From: a virus
IMG/VR virus record: IMGVR_UViG_3300011116_000643
Location: 1-20,888 of that record
Direction: 5' to 3' (one strand)
Length of the DNA stretch: 20,888 bases
Positions 14 through 20,888 of the stretch are shown piece by piece; the stretch's first letter is position 1, and every line of letters begins with the position of its first letter. The notes under the pieces were generated by a model that made no database searches, was not told where the DNA came from, and saw only the letters and a program-made list of their open reading frames with translations. The position numbers and the translations under genes were made by a program.

Positions 14-853
14 TCAAACCAGCCCCAACTCGCGCCACCGCTCTAGTTCCGCTTCTTCCTCATTCACCTTTATCTTTCCTCTTCCGCCACTCATGATGGG
101 TCTTGGTACGTCCTTGTCCCTGAAGATTCTGTCAGGCTCAACAGCCACGCCGCTGTTGCCCAAGAGGAAGTCGATAGCCATCACGGTGGTGTCCACCTGA
201 TCGTCATGGGCACCACTTGGCACGCTCCTGTGCTCCTGTAGCCAGTCCTCGCGCCATGCTCCCTTGCTGGGTATCCATGCCTTGCCTTGTTCGATCATTG
301 GCGTGACCGCTTCCATCCTTGCGATCTTCCCCGCTGTGGCCCTCAAGCCCTTGAAGTGATGCTTCCATGCGACACATGGCACGCCCTGTTTCCTGAGCAT
401 GGGCACGAGAGCCTGCCCGCTGCTCCTGTCCTCCACAACAGCAACGGGATTCCTGTGCTTCCATTTCTCGAACATCCGCGTCACCATCGTGAGCAAGTCG
501 GGAAACTCGACCCGTGCCCTCTTCACGTCGAGCAGATAGATGTTTCCCTTCGTGCATTTTGTCCATACTGCAAGTGCAGAAAAATCACTGCTCACACCCG
601 CCTTATATGCACTGTCTATGAATATTCCTGTTCGTACAGTCTCCGTGGGCGCAGTGTCGTATATCTGCCACCAGACTTCCTTGAAGATGTTGCCGTCGAT
701 GTCGGTAGGGTCTTGCTGGTAAAGGCTTCTCCATACACGATTCACTGAAGACGCTTTTCTTCTTTCCATGACATCAGCGGGCCATCTCACCGGGTCAAGT
801 GCTGGCCCTTCACTATGCACAAGTACTTTGAGTTTCAATTTGCTAGGCTCCAT
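14..853 (-). CDS. terL: Terminase large subunit, C-terminal nuclease half
   Basis: This is the nuclease half of the packaging motor, which cuts concatemeric phage DNA at the procapsid portal. Numbering from the ATG at 853, visible motifs are SLYQQDPTDIDG (about 44-55), the first acidic strand GIFIDSAYKAG with D80, VVEDRSSGQ with E141/D142, and AHDDQVDTTVMAI with D217/D218. This is the usual acidic triad order of the RNase H-like terminase nuclease. The ATPase half lies just upstream in a different frame and ends inside this gene (stop at 835). The open frame extends back to 916, but residues before the ATG are protein-like only by chance or because of a frameshift. No strong Shine-Dalgarno precedes 853 (only ggcaagtt). 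It may be a separate gene, the product of a -1 frameshift, or the result of an assembly indel. The nuclease identity is firm; the start is not. Confidence 0.87.
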   Translation of the reverse strand: MEPSKLKLKVLVHSEGPALDPVRWPADVMERRKASSVNRVWRSLYQQDPTDIDGNIFKEVWWQIYDTAPTETVRTGIFIDSAYKAGVSSDFSALAVWTKCTKGNIYLLDVKRARVEFPDLLTMVTRMFEKWKHRNPVAVVEDRSSGQALVPMLRKQGVPCVAWKHHFKGLRATAGKIARMEAVTPMIEQGKAWIPSKGAWREDWLQEHRSVPSGAHDDQVDTTVMAIDFLLGNSGVAVEPDRIFRDKDVPRPIMSGGRGKIKVNEEEAELERWRELGLV

Positions 854-1686
854 AACTTGCCGAATAGCACATCCAAATCTCTGGTCTCTTCCTGCTTGAT
901 CCCCGCACGCTCGCATACCTTGTCTGGTACTTGCAAATCGGCGAACACCTCGATGCCGTCAGAGAGTGCTGGCAACTTGATCTCGAACCACTGAACGCTC
1001 TCGGCAATGTTCTCGGCAATCTTCAGTGCCCTGCCGAGGATATCGTCCTGATGCCATCTCGTGAGGGTCATGATGCACGCGGCTCCGGGCATCAGTCGCG
1101 TGGAAGCCACACTCTGGTACCAGTACCAGTGGCTCTCCCTGATGAGTTCGCTGTCGGCCTGTACCCAGTCTTTCACCGGGTCGTCGATTGAAAGGATGTC
1201 CGCGCCTTTTCCTGTGAGGCCACCACCCACACCCACCGGCACATAGACCCCACCCGGATCAGTCCAACGCCCATCTACCAGAGCGTCGAGTCTCCAGCGC
1301 CGTACTGCCCAAGCATTCCCTGCAAGTTTTACATTGTCAAAAGGCCAGAGTGTACTTTTTACCACATCCCGAGTCTTTGTAGAAAACTCATCGGCCAAGT
1401 CTTGGGTATGACTCGCTGCCACGAATTGCTTCTGTGGGTTCCTGCCCAGATACCAAGCGGGAAACCTGATGGATGCCAACTCGCTCTTGCCGTGCCTTGG
1501 TGGCAATTCGATAGCAACTCTGTCAAGAACACCGCGCTCGACAAGCATCAAGGTCTGGGCAATGAGCCAGTGAATCCTCCCTACCTGATATCCCGGCTTT
1601 GTCCTCTCGGTAAAAGCCAAGAGGTTCTTTCTTGAGAGTGCCTTATCGGCTTCATTCCTGATCCACGTCAATGATGGTGCTCTCAT
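835..1686 (-). CDS. terL: Terminase large subunit, N-terminal ATPase half
   Basis: This is the ATPase domain that powers DNA translocation into the capsid. Walker A is PPRHGKSE at residues 62-69, Walker B is ILSIDDP at 164-170, and the coupling motif TLTRWHQDD is at 207-215, as in Terminase_6-type large subunits. The ATG at 1686 has an excellent ribosome site, AAGGAGG with 6-nt spacing, and overlaps the end of the small-subunit candidate by 35 bp. At 283 aa it is far shorter than a normal TerL (about 450-600 aa) because the frame closes at 835. The missing nuclease continues in the -1 frame from 853 or earlier. Together the two pieces give about 560 aa, a normal length. The ATPase assignment is certain from motifs. 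Whether the break is natural is unresolved. Confidence 0.9.
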   Translation of the reverse strand: MRAPSLTWIRNEADKALSRKNLLAFTERTKPGYQVGRIHWLIAQTLMLVERGVLDRVAIELPPRHGKSELASIRFPAWYLGRNPQKQFVAASHTQDLADEFSTKTRDVVKSTLWPFDNVKLAGNAWAVRRWRLDALVDGRWTDPGGVYVPVGVGGGLTGKGADILSIDDPVKDWVQADSELIRESHWYWYQSVASTRLMPGAACIMTLTRWHQDDILGRALKIAENIAESVQWFEIKLPALSDGIEVFADLQVPDKVCERAGIKQEETRDLDVLFGKLWSLAN

Positions 1687-2164
1687 TTTCAGCCTCCTTC
1701 ACGACGCCTATGAGCCGCAAGGATTCCAGTTGCCCTTCTGTAAGCGTGTCGAAATTCATGACCATCCCCGGTGCAATGCTCCTGCCACTCTCGTCAGTCG
1801 CCCACTTCTCCGGTGCGTCGAGTGCCAAGAGTTTGCTCGTCCTTTGTTCGATCCTCAGCATGGTCTCGATGGCTTCGAGTTCGCCCATCTCCACCCGTGG
1901 CATGATCGCTTCAAGGGCCACCCTGAGCCTTTCGAGTTGCATCTCCACGTACTCGTTTGCTCTTTCCGCTGTCTCTGTTTTCAATTTCGCCAGTGCCCTC
2001 ACCAGTGCTTTTCTTGCGCCGTCCTTTGAGATGTCCCCGATCCTCGCTGCGATCTTGCTGTAACTCAGCCCCATCGACCTGAGCCTCAGCACCTCTTCCT
2101 CGTGCGCTCGCGCCAGTGCACTCGTCGGACTTGTCGGGTCGTTCCGCCTTCCTATCCCTCTCAC
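1652..2164 (-). CDS. terS: Terminase small subunit candidate (HTH protein)
   Basis: This gene lies directly upstream of terL and overlaps it by 35 bp, the classical place for the DNA-recognition subunit of the packaging terminase. With a GTG start at 2164 the product is 170 aa. An N-terminal helix-turn-helix region (about 24-62, HEEEVLRLRSMGLSYSKIAARIG) is followed by a long helical stretch (65-115) with EYVEMQLERLRVALEAI, suited to oligomerisation, and an acidic C-terminus. The frame is open back to a TTG at 2233, but the GTG at 2164 is preferred because GGGAG lies 7 nt before it. The first third overlaps the 3' part of the PD-(D/E)XK nuclease frame on the same strand. TerS proteins diverge strongly, so the call rests on HTH plus position. 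A general phage DNA-binding protein is the alternative. Confidence 0.65.
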   Translation of the reverse strand: MRGIGRRNDPTSPTSALARAHEEEVLRLRSMGLSYSKIAARIGDISKDGARKALVRALAKLKTETAERANEYVEMQLERLRVALEAIMPRVEMGELEAIETMLRIEQRTSKLLALDAPEKWATDESGRSIAPGMVMNFDTLTEGQLESLRLIGVVKEAENESTIIDVDQE

Positions 2165-2561
2165 GCTCGTACTCCCATCCTTCAATTCCCTCGCTGAAGT
2201 CTTGCTCCAGTTTCTTGTACTGCATTGCGTCAATCAATATGACCATCACGCCCTTCTTCGCATAGTATCTTCTTATATTCTTTAACTGTCTCTTGCTTTT
2301 GTTGTCGAGGTACCCCTTGAGTTCTATGTAAATCTCGTGATAGGTAATTCCATCGAGCGTAATCGGGGCTACCCCCTTGAGTCGCCAATCGGGCAAATAA
2401 CTCTCATGGATGTCCCTGAAATAAAAACGCTTAGGCTCATAGGCGGTTTCGATTCCTCGAACCCCCATGAGCCTTGCGATGTTTCTTTCCCATGTGCTTC
2501 TATAATGATTGCCGTCTGCCAAATCCTCGGCAGGGCCATCTCTGGCAGTTCGCTTTCTCAC
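1911..2561 (-). CDS. PD-(D/E)XK endonuclease-like protein with out-of-frame-looking tail
   Basis: The first 130 of 216 residues form a compact nuclease-like domain: TWERNIARLM with E25, TAYEPKRFYF with E42, SYLPDW with D58, and IYIELKG with E80 and K82, giving a P-D-x21-E-x-K signature. This resembles the small PD-(D/E)XK phage nucleases related to Vsr or homing-type enzymes. The domain ends near EGIEGWEYE (about 2171). From there to the stop at 1911 the translation is Arg/Gly/Lys-rich and looks like a shadow of the TerS frame, so the natural stop may have been lost or an indel may be present. The start is GTG at 2561, sharing bases with the stop of a 24-aa ORF (GTGA). Next to terminase genes it could help packaging, resolve DNA or act as a mobile nuclease. 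The substrate cannot be told. Confidence 0.65.
   Translation of the reverse strand: MRKRTARDGPAEDLADGNHYRSTWERNIARLMGVRGIETAYEPKRFYFRDIHESYLPDWRLKGVAPITLDGITYHEIYIELKGYLDNKSKRQLKNIRRYYAKKGVMVILIDAMQYKKLEQDFSEGIEGWEYERERDRKAERPDKSDECTGASARGRGAEAQVDGAELQQDRSEDRGHLKGRRKKSTGEGTGEIENRDSGKSKRVRGDATRKAQGGP
2172..2176 (-). promoter_or_regulatory. Ribosome-binding site choosing the terS GTG start
   Basis: GGGAG on the minus strand lies 7 nt before the GTG at 2164. It favours this GTG over the TTG at 2233, which has no clear site. It sits inside the coding sequence of the upstream nuclease, close to where the nuclease fold should end. Confidence 0.4.
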
Positions 2562-4520: not shown

Positions 4521-6596
4521 TCACTGCTCAAGTCCCATCCGCGTCCAGTCGGCACCCACGGTATTCCTGCTCTTGCTTCGGTAGCCGTTTCTCATGCACC
4601 ACGCAGAATAGGAGTCGTAGAGTTCCTGAGCCTGCACCCGATACTCTTCACCGAGGTCAATGCGCTCCTCGAAGAATGTGCCCACCACATCGTTTCCTCG
4701 TCTGAATTCCGCCCCCGCGGCCCTGATTGTTTCGGGAGTTCTGGATGCCAGCGATTCTCCAGAGAGCATCAAGCGCCGAAGTCCTGCCATTGCCCAATTG
4801 AGAATCCCCGCTCCCTCCTTCTCAACACGTTCCTTGATGGTCGGGTCTAACTTCTTCAGCGCCTGCATCTTGACAATCTTGACTCGTCTGAAGATACCAT
4901 CGTTGGCACTCTGAAACCTTGGCAATTCGTTCATGCCCCAGAGAATCTTCGCCACGGGCCGTGCCTCATAGGAGTTCTGATGCTTGGCTTCCACGGTAAT
5001 GGTATCCCCGCTGATGAGCGAGTTGATGATGTCGCTGGTCTCAACCCATGTGCTTGGCTGCTCTGCTGCCACAAGCATGGTCTTGCCGGGAATGTTCACG
5101 AGCGAGAACCTTGGATTCCTAGCAATGTCAGCAAGCGAAAGCCTGCCAGCACGTGCAGCACCGAGGGCTTTCTCCATGCCTGCAATGAAGGTGCTCTTGC
5201 CTGCACCCGGTGGCGAGTAAAGCCAGACTGCTACTTCATGGCTCATGTCGCGCGTGAGACATATGCCTGCGAATTCCTGAAGCCACTCTGCAACATCTGG
5301 TGCAAACCTGTCTGCAATAAACGCTTCCCACGTGGGAGCAAACGCTTCGGCATCATAGAAGTACTCGGTCTGCTTCCTTGCCATGAACTCGGGGGAATGG
5401 TCGTATATCTGGCCCGTGTACACATCGACCGCGCCGTTTTGGCACACGATCACATCGGGTGATTCGTCCCAGACCCTTGCGGTCTTGGAGAACCTGCCCC
5501 TGAGTGCACGCTCCACACCGAGCACCACGCCGGTCTTCATCTTGTCGCCCATGATCTGTTGTATGCGGTACTCCACCAAATACTTGTCGATCTTGTCCCA
5601 GATGCCCCCGGCGTACTCGTACCACTGGTCGTCGATCATCATGCCGTTGGGATATCGGTCGGCATACTCATCGCTCAGGGCGACATAGATGCTCTTCGCG
5701 CCACCGCTCATGATTGGTTTCTGGTCTCGCTCTGCCACCCGCATGAGTGCCGAGCGTGCCATCTCCATATAGCGAGCGTCGCCATCTCTCCTGCCCGTGT
5801 ACTTCGGCCCCTTGGGAGAAGAGTTCCCGCGTGCTGCATCCCACCCCTTGAGCGTGCCAGCAAGCACACCCTCTTCTCTCAGGCCACCAAGTGCCAAGTG
5901 CATCGAGAGGCTCGCGAGTGCCCTGCTGCGGTCGCCACTGTAACTCTCGCCTTCCCAGACCTTGAGGCCATCATCGCTCAAGGGCACTGGTGGCGATTCA
6001 ATCTCAGCGGCAGCAACCACCACGCCCATCTCTACAAGGGCACGTGGCTTCTCTGCCTGTATCCTGAGCATCTCAACGGCCCACAGAGGTGGCTCCGGCA
6101 ACTCAGAAAGGTCTGGCACCTGCCACTCGTATTGCCTGCCCGAGTAATGCATGCTCGGTGGCACGATGAGCGCACCGTCTGCCAAGAGGTCAATCTTGCC
6201 ACTGGCACCTCTGTTGGTGCTACGGAACTTTGGCATTCCGCTGGGCTTCTGGTAGTACCAGTGCTGACCATTGCCGGTCTTCACCCAGAGCGAAGACGGC
6301 AGGCCAAGTCGCGTACCCTCGGCGATGGCCTCTTCACCATCAAGGTCGATGATGAAGAGACCACTCTGCCCGATGGCGATGGAGAGGTTTGCGAGAGGCC
6401 ATCTCTCGTCCCACATTGCGATCTGGTCAAGATCACGAGTGGCACCGTTGAACCCGCTTGAGTTGAGCGGTGCCTTGCCGCCTATCTTGTGCTGATATCC
6501 GCAAGCACAGTTGCCAGCGGAATCAGGCCAGCAAGAAGGAAACACAAACCAGCCCTTGTCGATTGCCGACAAGGCGGCGTCCATGAATTTTCCCAT
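4521..6596 (-). CDS. Prim-Pol/SF3-type DNA primase-helicase
   Basis: This 691-aa fusion lays primers and unwinds the replication fork. The N-terminal part is a bifunctional primase-polymerase domain: metal site IIDLDGEE (D84, D86), KTGNGQHWYY (H112), KIDLLADGALIVPPSMH (D136, 150). The C-terminal part is a phage/plasmid P4-type helicase: D5-like segment from about residue 380 (CQNGAVDVYTGQIY), Walker A SPPGAGKST (460-468), Walker B region KTMLVAAEQ (504-512), and sensor-like WGMNELPRF (552-560). Cys residues at 22, 30 and 32 near the N-terminus may bind zinc, though no classical finger is complete. It lies in the same operon as DnaE. An internal ATG at 6584 has GGGA 6 nt before it and is an alternative start, because the ATG at 6596 has no good ribosome site. 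Confidence 0.92.
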   Translation of the reverse strand: MGKFMDAALSAIDKGWFVFPSCWPDSAGNCACGYQHKIGGKAPLNSSGFNGATRDLDQIAMWDERWPLANLSIAIGQSGLFIIDLDGEEAIAEGTRLGLPSSLWVKTGNGQHWYYQKPSGMPKFRSTNRGASGKIDLLADGALIVPPSMHYSGRQYEWQVPDLSELPEPPLWAVEMLRIQAEKPRALVEMGVVVAAAEIESPPVPLSDDGLKVWEGESYSGDRSRALASLSMHLALGGLREEGVLAGTLKGWDAARGNSSPKGPKYTGRRDGDARYMEMARSALMRVAERDQKPIMSGGAKSIYVALSDEYADRYPNGMMIDDQWYEYAGGIWDKIDKYLVEYRIQQIMGDKMKTGVVLGVERALRGRFSKTARVWDESPDVIVCQNGAVDVYTGQIYDHSPEFMARKQTEYFYDAEAFAPTWEAFIADRFAPDVAEWLQEFAGICLTRDMSHEVAVWLYSPPGAGKSTFIAGMEKALGAARAGRLSLADIARNPRFSLVNIPGKTMLVAAEQPSTWVETSDIINSLISGDTITVEAKHQNSYEARPVAKILWGMNELPRFQSANDGIFRRVKIVKMQALKKLDPTIKERVEKEGAGILNWAMAGLRRLMLSGESLASRTPETIRAAGAEFRRGNDVVGTFFEERIDLGEEYRVQAQELYDSYSAWCMRNGYRSKSRNTVGADWTRMGLEQ

Positions 6597-7136: not shown

Positions 7137-10100
7137 TCATACACTGGGGGTTGGGCGGATTGCAAGCCACGCCCTGTTCATGATCAGGTTCACTTCGCCA
7201 TTCCAAGAATTGGCAGTGCCCCGGATCAGGATCATGTCGCCGACATTGTATTCGCTAGTCCTCAGTGCTTTATCAAACGCTGTAACGGAGAGGCTGCCAC
7301 TTTCATCTCTCAGTGTGTAGATGCACATTGGCTTTCCGGTCTTGGTAGTAAGTTCCTTCTTGCTCATTATCTCGCCGCCTACGGTGACAAGATGTTCCAT
7401 GCTCAGGGCAACATGCTCCTCGATCTCATTGAGCATGGTGTCCCGGCCAAGAGCCACGAAGTCGAAGGTGCTCAGCGGGTCAGCGGTGACAGCAAGCCCA
7501 AGGAATTCTCTCTCCCATTGCAACCTGCCAGCAAGTCCGGGGTCGGCCTCTCCTATCTTCTCAAGCAGGTTCCTCCTGTTCTCAAGGGAATCCATCGCAC
7601 CACTTTTCACCAGTGCCTCGATGGCCCGCTTGTTCACATTCTTCTTTGGAATCCGGCTCATGAAGTTCTCGATACTATGGAAAGGCCCGGATTTCCTTTC
7701 CTCGATAATATGCCCGATGGCTGCTACCCCTACATTCTTGATCCCGCCAAGACCAAACCTGACCCCATGCTTCCCGGCGCTGAAGTCTTCGCCACTGGCA
7801 TTGACACAAGGGGGAAGCACCCTTACGCCACTGCTCCTCGCGTTGTAGCAGATCACACTCATCCGGCCCACGTCGCCACTATCCTGAGTAAGCAGGGCGG
7901 CGAAATACTCTTTGGCCCAGTTTGCCTTGAGCCAAGCAGTCTGGTATGCCAGAAGGCCATAGGCTGCTGCATGGGCCTGATTGAACCCATAGTTTGCAAA
8001 GGGGACAATCTCGCTCCAGAGCGTGTCGATCTCTGTTGCGTTGAGTCCTGATCGCTCAAGTCCCTTGCGAAACTTAGGCTCATATATCTTGAGTTTATCG
8101 GGGTTCTTCTTTCTCACTGCCCCAAGGAACTGGTCGCTCTCGTATGCGGACATACCCGCTACACGCTGGGCAATCTGCATGATCGCTTCCTGATACACGA
8201 GTAACCCATAGGTGCCACGTAGCACAGGTTCCAGCGCCGAGTGCAGATACTTCACCTGCTCTCTTCCGTGCCGCCTGTTGCAGTAAGTCGGGATGCTGCC
8301 CATCGGCCCCGGTCTGTAGAGTGCCACCACTGCCTGAAGATGCTCGATACGGTCTGGCAGCAAGTCCCTCAAGACACGGCGCATGCCCGGACTCTCCACT
8401 TGGAACACGCCCACACTGTCGCCTTTGCCCAGCATCTTCCATGTTCGCTCGCAGTCCTCGGGTATCTTGTCGATGTCGATCAGTTCGCCGGTGCTTTCCT
8501 TTATAAAGGCCAGCGCACGGCTCACCGTAGACAAGGTTTTCAAGCCGAGCATGTCGAACTTGACAAGTCCTGCACGCTCGGCACTTCCCATGTCAAGTGC
8601 CACCATTGGCATCCCACCGCTGCTGTCCCGCAGAAGCGAGGTGCGCTCGACCAGTGGCATCCCGGCAATCACAAGGCCAGCAGCATGCTTGCCACAGTGC
8701 CTTACGGTTCCTTCCAGCGAGATGGCCTTCTTGATGAATGGCTCAAGTCTCATGCTGCCCAGTGTCGGGCTTATGTCCATTGCCTCTTCGATGTTCTTGC
8801 CCAGAGGGATCATCTTGGCAATGCTGTCGATCCGCTCTTGGCCTACACCCAAGACCCTGCCCACATCCCGTATTGCCATCCTGCCACCGATCTCGCTGAA
8901 GGTGACAATCTGGGCCACGCGGTCATCGCCATAGGTTCGCTGCACATAGGCAAGCACCTCTGCCCTCCGAGCATCCTCAAAGTCTAGGTCGATGTCCGGT
9001 GAGCGGCCATCATTGAGGAACCGCTCGAAACTCAGGTCATATCTCAATGGGTCTACCGGCGAGATGTCGAGTGCCCAAGCGATCAGCGATCCACCCACGC
9101 TTCCCCTAGCACTGCTCCTGATGCCGGATTCCCTGCACCACCGGCAGATGTCAGCCACGATCAGGAAGTACCTCGTGAACTCATTCCTCACGATGGTGTC
9201 GATCTCTAGGGCCAGCCTCGCCTGCATCTCATTACTAATGGAACCGTGCTTCCTAGTCAGCCCCCTGATGGATATGTCCGAAAGCCACGCCCCCTCGTCG
9301 GCTCCCTCTGGTACGCCCGCTGGCCGTGGGAATACCTGCTTGCCCAGCGTGATCTCTAGGTTGCACATCTCGGAGATGTTCACGCTCTCAAGCAGCCATT
9401 CATCGGGCCACCCGGCAGCCCGCATCTCATCGTTGGAAGCGAAGTGAAACCCCTTGCCTTGGAACTTGAACCTTGCAGGATCATTCCACTTGGCATTGGT
9501 CTGCACGGCCAGCAGCAACTCATGGGTCTCGGCGTCGTGGGGTTCAATGAAGTGGGAGTCCTGTGCCACCACGATTGGCAGACCAAGCCGGGTAGCCAGT
9601 ACAGTCAGGTGTCTGAGCACCTTCCTCTGGTCTGGGATTCCGTGATCGTGTACCTCGACGAAGTACCTGTCGCCAAACACATCCTTGTGCCAAGCCATAG
9701 TGCGTTCTGCTTTTACGAGGTCATCATTGACAATGGACTTAGCCACTTCGCTGGCTAGGCAGCCGCTCATGCAGATCAGCCCAGCACTATAGGTCTCCAG
9801 CATCTCCCTCGTGACACGTGGCCTTCTATGGAAATTCTCAAGACCAGCCCTCGTGACAAGCGTGTTGAGGTTCCGGTAGCCGATGCTATCCATTGCCAAG
9901 AGGACAAGATGCGAGTTGCCCGTGTCCTCAAGTTCGGCGGTATATACCTCGCATCCGATGATTGGCTTCACGCCTTCTTTCTTGCAGGCGTCGTAGAATC
10001 TCACCGCGCCGTGCATGTTTCCATGATCAGTCATTGCCACGGCTCGCTGGCCCCAAGCCTTTGCTTTCCTTGCAATTGCTTCGGGCCGACTCAGGCCGTC

Positions 10101-10148
10101 AAGAAGGCTATACTCCGTATGAGTGTGGAGATGTACAAAATCCGTCAT
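7137..10148 (-). CDS. dnaE: DNA polymerase III alpha subunit (phage DnaE)
   Basis: This C-family replicative polymerase has 1003 aa. An N-terminal PHP domain keeps the metal-site pattern: HLHTHTEYSLLDG (6-18), TDHGNM (40-45), IIGCEVY with E67, NSH with H80, SGC with C130, VEVHDHG (165-169 and following) and QDSHF with D197 and H199. The catalytic aspartates are in PDIDLDF (D385, D387) and KFDMLGL (D532). The thumb/fingers segments GAVRKKNPDK and GFNQAHAAAYGLLAY follow. An OB-fold region near the end contains KTGKPMCIYTLRDESGSLSV. The protein is shorter than E. coli DnaE (1160 aa) because it stops soon after the OB fold, so the tau-binding C-terminus is probably missing. The ATG at 10148 is 19 bp after the small upstream gene. 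Its ribosome site is weak, suggesting coupling. It presumably copies the phage genome with the primase-helicase. Confidence 0.97.
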   Translation of the reverse strand: MTDFVHLHTHTEYSLLDGLSRPEAIARKAKAWGQRAVAMTDHGNMHGAVRFYDACKKEGVKPIIGCEVYTAELEDTGNSHLVLLAMDSIGYRNLNTLVTRAGLENFHRRPRVTREMLETYSAGLICMSGCLASEVAKSIVNDDLVKAERTMAWHKDVFGDRYFVEVHDHGIPDQRKVLRHLTVLATRLGLPIVVAQDSHFIEPHDAETHELLLAVQTNAKWNDPARFKFQGKGFHFASNDEMRAAGWPDEWLLESVNISEMCNLEITLGKQVFPRPAGVPEGADEGAWLSDISIRGLTRKHGSISNEMQARLALEIDTIVRNEFTRYFLIVADICRWCRESGIRSSARGSVGGSLIAWALDISPVDPLRYDLSFERFLNDGRSPDIDLDFEDARRAEVLAYVQRTYGDDRVAQIVTFSEIGGRMAIRDVGRVLGVGQERIDSIAKMIPLGKNIEEAMDISPTLGSMRLEPFIKKAISLEGTVRHCGKHAAGLVIAGMPLVERTSLLRDSSGGMPMVALDMGSAERAGLVKFDMLGLKTLSTVSRALAFIKESTGELIDIDKIPEDCERTWKMLGKGDSVGVFQVESPGMRRVLRDLLPDRIEHLQAVVALYRPGPMGSIPTYCNRRHGREQVKYLHSALEPVLRGTYGLLVYQEAIMQIAQRVAGMSAYESDQFLGAVRKKNPDKLKIYEPKFRKGLERSGLNATEIDTLWSEIVPFANYGFNQAHAAAYGLLAYQTAWLKANWAKEYFAALLTQDSGDVGRMSVICYNARSSGVRVLPPCVNASGEDFSAGKHGVRFGLGGIKNVGVAAIGHIIEERKSGPFHSIENFMSRIPKKNVNKRAIEALVKSGAMDSLENRRNLLEKIGEADPGLAGRLQWEREFLGLAVTADPLSTFDFVALGRDTMLNEIEEHVALSMEHLVTVGGEIMSKKELTTKTGKPMCIYTLRDESGSLSVTAFDKALRTSEYNVGDMILIRGTANSWNGEVNLIMNRAWLAIRPTPSV

Positions 10149-10167: not shown

Positions 10168-10359
10168 CTATCCGCCTATCTTGCCAGTCAGGTAAAGGTA
10201 TCTGGCAAACTGCCATCTCTTGGATACACCATCCCATCTTGGATTTTTTCCCCTCCATTTTCGCTCTAATCGAATAAGCCTGTCAATTCCCTCCTGAGAA
10301 ATCTTGCCGTATGCCAAGGCAACGAGGAAGGAACTTTTACCGGGGAGAACATAACTCAT
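10168..10359 (-). CDS. Small basic hypothetical protein (63 aa) leading the replication operon
   Basis: The product is basic and aromatic (GIDRLIRLERKWRGKNPRWD, then SKRWQFARYLYLTGKIGG), which would suit nucleic-acid or protein binding. No family is recognised. It ends 19 bp before dnaE on the same strand. The ATG at 10359 overlaps the start of the plus-strand sigma gene in a shared CATG. The frame stays open to another ATG at 10425 with AGGAG at 10-nt spacing, giving 85 aa. The extra 22 residues (SSDNKPNASLSP and on) look like a shadow of the sigma N-terminus, so the shorter form is listed, though the ribosome site favours the longer one. Confidence 0.5.
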   Translation of the reverse strand: MSYVLPGKSSFLVALAYGKISQEGIDRLIRLERKWRGKNPRWDGVSKRWQFARYLYLTGKIGG

Positions 10360-10954
10360 GGAAGAACTTATATCTCGCGCCAAGGCTGGAGACAAAGAAG
10401 CGTTTGGCTTGTTGTCTGAACTCATACGACCTAAACTCCTCAGCCATGTTATCTATCATGTTCGGAACAGGGACATGGCTGAGAATATAATACAACACAC
10501 ATTCTACAAGGCGCTGAAGAAAATCAACACAGTACAAGATGGCAAGTTTTATTTCAATGCATGGATATACACCATAGCGGGCAACCTCATCAGGGACGAG
10601 CGCCGCAAGATGCTCAGTCAGAATACCTATTCGCTTGAGGCCAGAATCGCCCTTACCAATGAGCACGTAGACCTCGATCACGCCGAAGACTTCGGGGTCG
10701 TGATGATGAACTCAGAACTCGACAACAGCGTCCTTGATCCAGCCGTGATCTATGAGCATGAGGAAGAGCGCATCGAGACCCATGACCGTCTCATGAAAGC
10801 GATGCAACTGCTTACCCCAGTGCAACGGGAGACTTTGATCCGCAGAAGCAATGGTGAGACCTACGCTGAGATTGGCGAAAGCATCGGCATCTCTTGGCAG
10901 TCGGTAAAAGGCATTCTGGAAAAAGCCCGCAAGATCGTAAGGGATACCTACTAG
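10358..10954 (+). CDS. ECF-like RNA polymerase sigma factor
   Basis: The only plus-strand gene encodes a 198-aa sigma-70 family factor of the two-domain ECF type. Region 2 spans about residues 13-85 and includes AENIIQHTFYKALKKI (41-56) and FNAWIYTIAGNLIRDERRK (66-84). Region 4 spans about 144-195 with the helix-turn-helix ETYAEIGESIGISWQSVKG. The acidic linker (about 88-140) is long. It would bind host core RNA polymerase and direct it to phage promoters. The ATG at 10358 follows GGGGAG with 10-nt spacing. The gene is divergent from the replication operon, with start codons overlapping in CATG, and ends 7 bp before a terminator hairpin. No anti-sigma gene is visible. The promoters it reads cannot be identified in this window. 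Confidence 0.92.
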   Translation: MEELISRAKAGDKEAFGLLSELIRPKLLSHVIYHVRNRDMAENIIQHTFYKALKKINTVQDGKFYFNAWIYTIAGNLIRDERRKMLSQNTYSLEARIALTNEHVDLDHAEDFGVVMMNSELDNSVLDPAVIYEHEEERIETHDRLMKAMQLLTPVQRETLIRRSNGETYAEIGESIGISWQSVKGILEKARKIVRDTY

Positions 10955-17373: not shown

Positions 17374-18639
17374 CTATGATACAGTGAATTGCGAAGGATT
17401 TGAGAAGTCCCATCCAGATTTTTGCATCCATATATAATATGATCCAGCATCAAGCATAAATGACACCGTTCCATTTGCGCTGCTATATTGCGTACCAGCA
17501 ATAATATTTTGCCCAATTATGTCGCTGGTAACCCATGCCGCAACTCCCTCAATGGGAACACTTGCTGGATTCAATATGGTTGTGGTATGAAGAATTGCTC
17601 CAGCGCCCGAGGTAATCCTACTACTCACCTTGGCATCGAGGTTGGTATCCACCGATGTCTTGATGGCTGTCACGTCTGCTTGCAAACTGGTCAATCCAGT
17701 AGTAGCAAGCCGGGAGGAAACAGTGGCATCTAGGTTAGCAACCACTGGGGTCTTGATGGCTGTCACGTCTGCTTGCAAACTGGTCAATCCAGTAGTAGCA
17801 AGCCGGGAGGAAACAGCGGCATCTAGGTTAGCAACCACTGGGGTCTTGATGGCTGTCACGTCTGCTTGCAAACTGGTCAATCCAGTAGTAGCAAGCCGGG
17901 AGGAAACAGCGGCATCTAGGTACCCTGCTCTTGTGGAAGTGTAGTCCGCAGCACTGGCACGTGTGCTAGTCGCCACGTCCGTCCTAGTTAGGATGGTTCC
18001 TATGCTGGTGTTATCTGGTGCGGTATACGTAAATGTTGCCATCCTCGACGCCACGGTAGCGTCGAGATTGTCCGCAATCCGCTTGCCGACACTTCCCGCC
18101 GTGGTAAGCGCCGATGTGAGTACGTCCCATATTTGCTGAGCCGTGGGTGGAGTGACGGCAAGGGCATACCCGCTCTTGTCGTTGTTTGTCCCAACCGTCA
18201 CTGAGAATCCGAATCCGCTCAATGTCCGGGTGCTAGCCGCCCAGACCAGTGTCGCCGGGTCTTGCCCAGACGAATAGGCTCCGACAGTGACGTTCCCCGT
18301 GGCCTGTCTTGAGGTCACGGCTGCATCCAGATACTCGCTCCCAGATTTCTGCACACACCAGATGCTTGGTATTTCTCGCTGGTCTGGCGTTGCCGAGGAT
18401 GTTTTAAATATGCAAATATATTCGCCCTCTCCGGTCACGCTTGCCGATCCCAATTGATACCTATACAGACCTCCACCGATCTCTGTAGCACTGCCAGCAG
18501 TAACAATCTGCGAACTCGTGTTTGTTGCAGTCAAATGTTTCCATACATCGACTGTAACTGTTAGTCCTGTAACTCCTTGTTTTGATGAAACAAAAAAAGA
18601 GAAGAAATCTAAATTGTTCGACAGTTGTTCTAGTGGCAT
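17374..18639 (-). CDS. Repeat-containing tail/appendage protein (421 aa)
   Basis: Three parts are visible. Residues 1-90 are a beta-rich head (TGLTVTVDVWKHLTATNTSS). The middle (about 100-335) carries LDAAVSSR-type repeats, of which three are near-identical 31-aa units (LDAAVSSRLATTGLTSLQAD with VTAIKTPVVAN). Degenerate copies precede them (LDAAVTSRQATG, LDATVASRMATF) and a partial copy follows (LDAKVSSRI). The end (about 350-421) resembles a carboxypeptidase-regulatory or Ig-like sandwich (VPIEGVAAWVTSD, then GTVSFMLDAGSYYIWMQKSG). The repeats have a heptad-like hydrophobic pattern suited to a trimeric fibre shaft. The ribosome site is weak. The stop overlaps the ribosome site of the next gene. 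A fibre or spike role is inferred. Confidence 0.65.
   Translation of the reverse strand: MPLEQLSNNLDFFSFFVSSKQGVTGLTVTVDVWKHLTATNTSSQIVTAGSATEIGGGLYRYQLGSASVTGEGEYICIFKTSSATPDQREIPSIWCVQKSGSEYLDAAVTSRQATGNVTVGAYSSGQDPATLVWAASTRTLSGFGFSVTVGTNNDKSGYALAVTPPTAQQIWDVLTSALTTAGSVGKRIADNLDATVASRMATFTYTAPDNTSIGTILTRTDVATSTRASAADYTSTRAGYLDAAVSSRLATTGLTSLQADVTAIKTPVVANLDAAVSSRLATTGLTSLQADVTAIKTPVVANLDATVSSRLATTGLTSLQADVTAIKTSVDTNLDAKVSSRITSGAGAILHTTTILNPASVPIEGVAAWVTSDIIGQNIIAGTQYSSANGTVSFMLDAGSYYIWMQKSGWDFSNPSQFTVS
17632..17910. repeat. Three 93-bp direct tandem repeats
   Basis: Units start at 17632, 17725 and 17818, each with GGCATC[T/G]AGG. The second and third are almost identical, while the first differs at several bases near its left end. 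The next GGCATCTAGG, at 17911, begins a degenerate copy. The period is 31 codons, so copy changes keep the reading frame of the 421-aa protein. They can arise by slippage or recombination. Confidence 0.95.
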
Positions 18640-19185: not shown

Positions 19186-20214
19186 TCAAGCGCGTTGTTC
19201 AAGTGTAGCAATTCGTGTAGCGAGTTCCTTGATGGCATTCACAAATGCCCACTGCAACTCGTTGGTATTGAGGTTCAGGAGTTCCGTCACCGTTTCAACA
19301 TCATCCTCATCCTTGTCCGTATGTTCATACGTTCCAATCATCTCCGGCCAAGTTGCCTGAGCCTCCTGTGCAATCACGGACACATGCTCCCGGCCGTCAT
19401 CAACCGATCCGAATGCACCGTTGAGGCGGTACCTCTTCGGCTCAAGTGCCATGATGTCCGCAACCCCACGCGTGTATGGGCCAACGACTTCTTTCACCCT
19501 CGCGTCGGAACTGATCGTCCATGTGTTGGATGTTGGCTTTGCGGCGGAGTCAGTATTCAAGTGAAGTGCATAGGATGGGGTAGCGGCAAACCCGATGGCA
19601 ACCCTTCCAGCGGACGAGATTCCAAAAACATCTCCGACACTGTTGACTAAATTAATAAAATTATTACTATTGGAAGCAGTTGAACAAGAAACGCGTATCA
19701 TTCCACCAGCAACTGCGGCACTAGCACTGGTATTGCTTACTGTCAATGAGGTATCAAACGTGCCTGCTCCAGTATGAACAAAACATGTTGCCGCAACATT
19801 AGTTATAGTACTTTTTACAAATAAATAAGCATTTGGAGATGGTTCATTAATGCCTACGTATCCAGAGGAAGTAAGAACCATTCCAACAGTATCATTACCG
19901 TAAGTAAAATTGATTGCCCCAGTTCCAGAATTAGTTGTATATCTGCTTCCAATTCTTAATCCCAAACTGTCCCATTGCATGAATTGAGAAGTGCCAAATC
20001 TGCTTTTTACTGTCACGTTTGCATTTGCTAGCGCATTGGTAGCACCGCTGTATGTATTCTCAACTTGCAAATGCCCCGTGGTGTCGTTTGCGGTTACACC
20101 AGAAACATGTAGCAACGTTCCAGAAGCCGGACTACTTGTCCCAATGCCAACGTTGCCAAGGTTGACAAGTGTCCCGTCCCCACGCTCATCACTGCTAAGT
20201 CTTTTAATAGCCAT
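19186..20214 (-). CDS. Tail fibre with C-terminal S74 self-cleaving chaperone
   Basis: A 342-aa fibre ends in an intramolecular chaperone of auto-processing (peptidase S74). The shaft carries VGIGTSSP-type beta segments (21-30, again near 119-126 and 205-215). The S74 domain starts at SSDARVKE, with the candidate Ser-Lys dyad S236 and K241 in the S-D-x-R-x-K motif. DIMALEPKRYRLNG, VSVIAQEAQATWPEMIG and LNLNTNELQWAFVNAIKELA follow, then a C-terminal coiled coil. In this family the chaperone trimerises the fibre and then cleaves itself off before the Ser. The ATG at 20214 is 2 bp after the upstream stop. A second S74 end lies at 20668-20888, so two fibres with the same maturation system are encoded. 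Confidence 0.9.
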   Translation of the reverse strand: MAIKRLSSDERGDGTLVNLGNVGIGTSSPASGTLLHVSGVTANDTTGHLQVENTYSGATNALANANVTVKSRFGTSQFMQWDSLGLRIGSRYTTNSGTGAINFTYGNDTVGMVLTSSGYVGINEPSPNAYLFVKSTITNVAATCFVHTGAGTFDTSLTVSNTSASAAVAGGMIRVSCSTASNSNNFINLVNSVGDVFGISSAGRVAIGFAATPSYALHLNTDSAAKPTSNTWTISSDARVKEVVGPYTRGVADIMALEPKRYRLNGAFGSVDDGREHVSVIAQEAQATWPEMIGTYEHTDKDEDDVETVTELLNLNTNELQWAFVNAIKELATRIATLEQRA

Positions 20215-20667: not shown

Positions 20668-20888
20668 TCACGGCTTTGCCTCTAGCGCGTCAATGCGGGC
20701 TTGCATTGCGGCATTCTGTTCCGCCAATTCCTTGATTGCATTGACGAGTCCCCATTGCAGATCGTTGGTATTGAGATTCAGCAGTTCCAACTGAACGGTT
20801 TCGCCAGTCTCAGGATCGGTCTCCTGATGCGGGAATGCCCCGACCATCTCCGGCCAAGTACTCAGTGCATCCTGCGCAATGATTGACA
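20668..20888 (-). CDS. Second S74-ended tail fibre, C-terminal fragment (cut by window edge)
   Basis: The frame runs in from the right edge without a start and ends with TGA at 20668. Its 73 codons give SIIAQDALSTWPEMVG, then LNLNTNDLQWGLVNAIKELA, and a coiled-coil end (MQARIDALEAKP). This is a clear paralogue of the complete fibre at 19186-20214 (VIAQEAQATWPEMIG, LNLNTNELQWAFVNAIKELA). The catalytic SDxRxK motif lies beyond the window. The two differ most in the loop between WPEM and LNLNTN. It is probably another receptor-binding fibre upstream in the same operon. Confidence 0.85.
   Translation of the reverse strand, partial: SIIAQDALSTWPEMVGAFPHQETDPETGETVQLELLNLNTNDLQWGLVNAIKELAEQNAAMQARIDALEAKP

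Follow-up and report, generated by a model that had tools for sequence, protein, structure and literature searches.

A probable two-gene large terminase, apparently cut within its ATPase domain, in a clade of seemingly uncultured phages

The large terminase (TerL) pumps DNA into the phage head and is normally one chain; in the phages described here it appears as two proteins from adjoining genes. Two-gene TerLs have already been reported: in the Arthrobacter cluster AY phages, the ATPase and nuclease parts are encoded by consecutive genes (PMC11920828, PMC12820723), and our search of the literature on split terminases found only these phages, introns and inteins. In solved TerLs, a lid subdomain and a linker lie between the ATPase core and the nuclease (PMC5727402, PMC3012670). 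Terminase models describe a relay: ATP hydrolysis shifts the lid ("transmission") subdomain, and the lid in turn shifts the nuclease/translocation domain. For T4 gp17, subdomain II is displaced upon hydrolysis in subdomain I and then pulls the C-domain (PMC3012670). When gp17 was cut at the linker in the laboratory, ATPase and nuclease activities were kept and translocation was lost (PMC3012670).

The window analyzed in this study is the entire linear IMG/VR record IMGVR_UViG_3300011116_000643 (20,888 nt). Its terminase region has the following features, in which L-numbers denote sequences used for comparison:

1652..2233, minus strand: probable small terminase (TerS)/HTH protein, likely start GTG 2164; phrog_645, 5.1e-21; syntenic in L003-L010
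835..1686, minus strand: ORF1, N-terminal part of TerL with the ATPase core, 283 aa; Terminase_6N, 2.8e-9; phrog_38, 2e-50
1480..1503, minus strand: Walker A/P-loop PPRHGKSE, ORF1 residues 62-69, invariant in nine relatives
1180..1197, minus strand: Walker B ILSIDD, ORF1 residues 164-169, invariant in nine relatives
1042..1068, minus strand: coupling motif TLTRWHQDD, ORF1 residues 207-215, conserved in split and intact TerLs
838..951, minus strand: ORF1 C-terminal tail, residues 246-283, a candidate docking element, extra relative to most intact TerLs
851..853, minus strand: alternative ORF2 start ATG, adding 5 aa; L005, L006 and L007 lack an ATG start homologous to it
848..851, minus strand: Shine-Dalgarno-like GGAG, separated from the TTG by a 9-nt spacer
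835..838, minus strand: TTGA stop-start overlap of the ORF2 start TTG (838-836) and the ORF1 stop TGA (837-835); homologous ATGA in L005, L006 and L009-L014
14..838, minus strand: ORF2, C-terminal part of TerL with the putative lid segment and RNase H-like nuclease, 274 aa from TTG 838-836
707..808, minus strand: putative lid segment (GPALDPVRWP...YQQDP), ORF2 residues 11-44, aligning to G-ALWPE...LYQQ of intact TerLs
614..616, minus strand: nuclease acidic residue D75 (IFIDSAYK) of ORF2, invariant
431..433, minus strand: nuclease acidic residue E136 (VVEDRSS) of ORF2, invariant
200..205, minus strand: nuclease acidic residues D212-D213 (HDDQVD) of ORF2, invariant

A first-pass annotation of this DNA had placed all ATPase motifs in one frame ending at 835 and the nuclease acidic residues in the -1 frame, and both statements hold. 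ORF1 has the Walker A, Walker B and coupling motifs of a P-loop ATPase, invariant or nearly so in nine relatives. ORF2, which lies in the -1 frame relative to ORF1 and whose stop codon ends at 14, carries the invariant D75, E136, D212 and D213 of an RNase H-like nuclease and matches Terminase_6C (Pfam PF17289; E = 1.5e-11), TIGR01630 (3.4e-20) and phrog_38 (7.1e-48). A search of both halves against TerL families, a check proposed in the first-pass annotation, placed them on consecutive parts of phrog_38 (760 positions) without overlap, with ORF1 on positions 260-477 and ORF2 on 483-715; relatives are split alike. With the conserved start, the joined length is 283 + 274 = 557 aa, in agreement with the earlier estimate of about 560 aa. 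Instead of the single polypeptide of a tailed-phage large terminase, two cistrons are present in 13 of 13 contigs, and chance is not an issue, because each half is full-length and conserved and recurs in independent contigs.

The 12 other split contigs were found by searches of IMG/VR viral contigs and come from several metagenomes; together with the window they represent about eight lineages, with amino acid identities reaching as low as about 57-67%. DNA identity to the window is 92% for L004, 84% for L003 and 66-71% for the remaining contigs; L009 and L010 are 96% identical to each other, and L009/L010, L005, L006, L007 and L008 are distinct lineages. Protein identity to the window ranges from 98% down to 67% for ORF1 and from 96% down to 57% for ORF2. 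Both halves are under purifying selection, with dN/dS values, calculated for the window, L003 and L004 only, of 0.03-0.05 for ORF1 and 0.08-0.10 for ORF2. Exactly one Terminase_6N match and one Terminase_6C match were obtained per contig searched, and no second, intact TerL was seen in these contigs with the two profiles; however, all of the relatives are metagenomic contigs and none is rated complete, so that an intact TerL could lie elsewhere in their genomes. The gene order exonuclease-endonuclease-TerS-ORF1-ORF2 is conserved.

In a maximum-likelihood tree of 25 TerLs, the split sequences formed one clade (support, 100/100), and they were again monophyletic in the single-half trees (100/100 and 98/98). 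The nearest sequences in the full and ORF2 trees were the intact TerLs of L061 and CRP-810, with moderate support; the intact L048 also stands nearest beside L061 in these trees. The simplest reading of these trees is that the split was gained once, in the ancestor of the clade. The clade appears to be uncultured, since no prophage relative turned up when GTDB genomes were scanned with the ORF2 alignment and, among the matches listed, no deposited phage exceeded 47% (ORF1) or 35% (ORF2) identity. No similar split was found in the inspected deposited phages of the same TerL superfamily, which were single-gene or intein-bearing. One candidate, the Caulobacter phage CcrSwift, has an apparent split with the nuclease at the record end; it was rejected, as in the related phage Magneto the ATPase match is at the other end of the record and carries an intein annotation. 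The CcrSwift record also has, near its start (L067:258-719), a TerL-nuclease-like stretch without an annotated gene, probably a TerL that runs across the terminal repeat.

Several features of the neighboring genes were recorded. The TerS-like ORF (1652-2233) lies directly upstream of ORF1 and overlaps it; the PHROGs label "RNase E" on its product is probably a mislabel. An endonuclease ORF (1911-2561, minus strand) overlaps the TerS-like ORF out of frame, by about 250-320 nt in the window, L003 and L004 and by about 60-110 nt in L005 and L010. Past ORF2, the genes of L004 (5641-8848) and L010 (5635-8845) are on the opposite strand and converge on the terminase; an ORF of ~640 aa in this region, with no Pfam or PHROG match, is a possible portal by position. 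Elsewhere in the window, a gene for a phage-encoded, bacterial-type DNA polymerase III alpha subunit with a PHP domain (7137-10148, minus strand) is adjoined by a Prim-Pol/D5-type primase-helicase (4521-6596). The only clear plus-strand gene seen, amid minus-strand genes, encodes a sigma-70 family factor (10358-10954; Pfam regions 2 and 4; phrog_1740). The protein encoded at 17374-18639 (minus strand) has near-perfect internal repeats (VSSRLATTGLTSLQADVTAIKTPVVANLDAA) and no family match. The products of 19186-20214 and 20668-20888 (minus strand) have similar C-terminal ends (NLNTNELQWAFVNAIKELA and NLNTNDLQWGLVNAIKELA, respectively); the former is a Peptidase_S74 tail-fiber chaperone, and the latter gene is cut by the contig end.

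The first-pass annotation had described a split into ATPase and nuclease domains, and on this point it needs correction to a cut within the ATPase lid region. When 18 intact TerLs were aligned, the junction fell between a strand ending LPA[LI] and a G-x-ALWPE segment leading to an LYQQ helix. The order of segments in the alignment, together with what is generally known of TerL structures, identifies ALWPE...LYQQ as the putative lid segment; this alignment therefore places the cut inside the ATPase domain, upstream of the lid segment, and not at the ATPase/nuclease linker. The label "ATPase gene plus nuclease gene" is thus inexact here, because ORF2 comprises the lid segment as well as the nuclease. 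AlphaFold models from nine sequences were of low confidence (pLDDT, 50 and 46), and the assignments of the interface and the lid consequently rest on sequence alignment. In Foldseek, the low-confidence nuclease model gave weak matches to the TerL nucleases 5m1o, 3c6a and 3cpe; a fold search with the low-confidence ATPase model gave no significant match. PDB sequence searches with profiles A1 and A2 found no match, and those with the intact TerLs (A3) matched only two terminases, in the ATPase core, so that solved domain boundaries are not transferable. At the junction site, intact TerLs have a short loop, for example AEDDPLGRAPG, whereas about 40 further residues are present in the split clade, most of them in the ORF1 tail. 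These extra residues, about 38 on ORF1 and about 10 on ORF2, are conserved; the match of ORF1 to phrog_38 stops at residue 246, and the tail beyond it contains several residues that are invariant in nine sequences.

We consider it highly probable that this locus encodes a genuine two-gene large terminase, derived by a single division of an ancestral TerL gene in a loop of the ATPase domain, whose chains most likely bind each other. The two-gene option had been raised in the first-pass annotation and is supported by the two conserved cistrons in the window and 12 other contigs. The cistrons keep all catalytic motifs, occur as single copies under purifying selection, are monophyletic and have a defined split point; we infer that the halves reassemble noncovalently into a working motor. 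The ancestral single gene would have been broken, in the ancestor of this seemingly uncultured clade, in the loop that runs from the strand with the end W-F-E-I-K-L-P-A-L to the A-L-x-P-x-R-W-P segment before the lid helices. ORF1 would then yield the ATPase core chain, and ORF2, started at the TTG or ATG that overlaps the ORF1 stop, would yield a chain carrying the lid segment and the nuclease. The two chains would bind, perhaps via the extra ORF1 tail and the new ORF2 N terminus, and each motor subunit would consist of one ATPase chain and one lid-nuclease chain. Lid and nuclease would stay covalently joined, and the contact to be remade would be that of the ATPase core with the lid.

Two genes could also serve a nuclease chain that works on its own, for example as an enzyme brought in to cut DNA at the start and end of packaging, and not as a stoichiometric part of the translocating ring. 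A gene of its own permits a dosage of its own, and the phi29 packaging ATPase translocates DNA without an active nuclease; however, ORF2 also appears to hold the lid segment that completes the ATPase domain in single-chain TerLs. We regard a separate nuclease as improbable, and a stoichiometric complex is favored because ORF2 carries this segment.

The junction is TTGA in the window, L003 and L004 and ATGA in L005, L006 and L009-L014, in each case a 4-nt overlap. In L007 there is a 20-nt gap, and the ORF2 frame opens only past the ORF1 stop; in L008 there is a 35-nt overlap, with ORF2 in the other frame and a TAG stop. Both proteins are intact across all of these junction types. The homologous ORF2 start is ATG everywhere except in the window group (window, L003 and L004), where it is TTG, and it lies 10 codons before GPALDP in all members but L008, the most divergent, in which the start is an M next to this position or slightly upstream of it. 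The lineages thus have a common ORF2 N terminus, at or near M-K-[LM]-x-[VA]-[LV]-[VL]-H-x-x-GPALDP. Because they share this position, the window start is placed at TTG 838-836, likely homologous to the ATG of the other lineages. The first-pass annotation had suggested ATG 853, with a 19-nt overlap; the overlap is correct and this start is possible, changing the protein by only 5 aa, but the TTG is the likelier start. It had also given the -1 frame as open from 916, which is the first ATG within the stretch; the frame is in fact open from 958, and relatives show no start there. Upstream of 838, the ORF2 frame had seven variable sites in the selection comparison. The GGAG motif and its spacer recur in L003, L004 and L009-L014, although this conservation is not independent, because GGAG also encodes W-S in ORF1. 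The overlap of the ORF1 stop with the ORF2 start points to translational coupling or reinitiation.

If ribosomes were programmed to shift into the -1 frame close to the ORF1 stop, an option in the first-pass annotation, one full-length TerL would result. Such frameshifting would fit the -1 frame of ORF2 in the window, the long overlap of open frames (958-835) and a TTTAAAT heptamer in L004, 39 nt before the stop. However, the last 150 nt of ORF1 contain no in-frame X_XXY_YYZ, confirming the earlier remark that no slippery heptamer precedes the stop; most relatives also lack one, and the few found share no position. Neither a conserved slippery site nor overlapping open frames are kept in the relatives, and ORF2 retains its own start codon position. 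The gap in L007 and the different relative frame in L008 effectively rule out frameshifting in the family, barring errors in these two sequences, and we consider it very unlikely overall. An indel introduced into an ordinary single gene by sequencing or assembly, also proposed earlier, is conceivable for a single metagenomic contig, but its probability is negligible when 12 other contigs of 66-92% nucleotide identity are split, the close relatives all carry the gene in two parts, the start codon and the 4-nt overlap are conserved, and extra conserved residues, compared with intact TerLs, flank the junction on both sides. Rejoining of the halves at the RNA or protein level, by an intron or split intein, has precedent in the TerL inteins of other phages, namely, Mic1 (PMC7156551) and mycobacteriophage Phlyer. 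The 4-nt overlap of the ORFs leaves no room for an intron, and no insert of an intein- or intron-bearing TerL was found. Split-intein halves are far longer than the extra residues on ORF1 or ORF2, which are far too few, and this explanation can likewise be set aside.

The intact TerLs of L061 (IMGVR 3300033416_000002), Roseobacter phage CRP-810 (OR671924) and Pseudanabaena phage Pam1 (ON014753), of the same superfamily, have the same motifs in the same order, with identities of 47% to ORF1 for Pam1 and of 39% (L061) and 35% (CRP-810) to ORF2, and in Pam1 TerS lies upstream of TerL, as here. Unlike the split clade, these phages encode TerL in one uninterrupted gene of 466-540 codons; in CRP-810 this gene has a long loop exactly at the site of the split clade's cut. 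Two half-length PHROG TerL families, phrog_4758 (243 positions) and phrog_5573 (250 positions), have ends near the split point, and ORF1 residues 10-243 and ORF2 residues 3-223, respectively, cover them. Their members may be split genes, truncated records or intein-interrupted genes, and we do not claim uniqueness for the cut point. In TerL-based virus taxonomy and annotation, the phages of this clade would be scored as having a truncated TerL.

As in the laboratory halves of T4 gp17, the two activities reside on two polypeptides; however, gp17 was cut at the linker, whereas the natural cut seems to fall one step earlier, leaving lid and nuclease on one chain. Since gp17 split at the linker lost translocation, it cannot be taken for granted that a two-chain motor works. 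The chances are about even that the motor is a ring of two-chain subunits without a covalent link, its nucleotide pocket completed across two polypeptides, and that lid-nuclease joining keeps it pumping. If so, this joining would be what lets a split TerL pump, in contrast to gp17 with its break at the linker. A long-lived natural split elsewhere in the chain would show where TerL can be broken, and it gives two separately expressed proteins for testing what the covalent links do.

The closest parallel is cluster AY, in most of which a two-gene TerL is stable. As in BillyTP (PP978841, genes 2-3) and BlueShadow, the TerL genes described here are consecutive and slightly overlapping, by 17 nt in BillyTP. 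In BillyTP, the nuclease gene (gene 3) matches PF20441 (TerL_nuclease) and the ATPase gene has no Pfam match, whereas the halves reported here match Terminase_6N and Terminase_6C. BillyTP is cut at the ATPase/nuclease boundary, giving an ATPase of 359 aa and a nuclease of 198 aa with its first Asp at about residue 15; the cut described here is upstream of that point, and ORF2 carries the putative lid segment, with its first Asp at residue 75. The two splits are probably independent events, the present one having affected another TerL family at another cut point.
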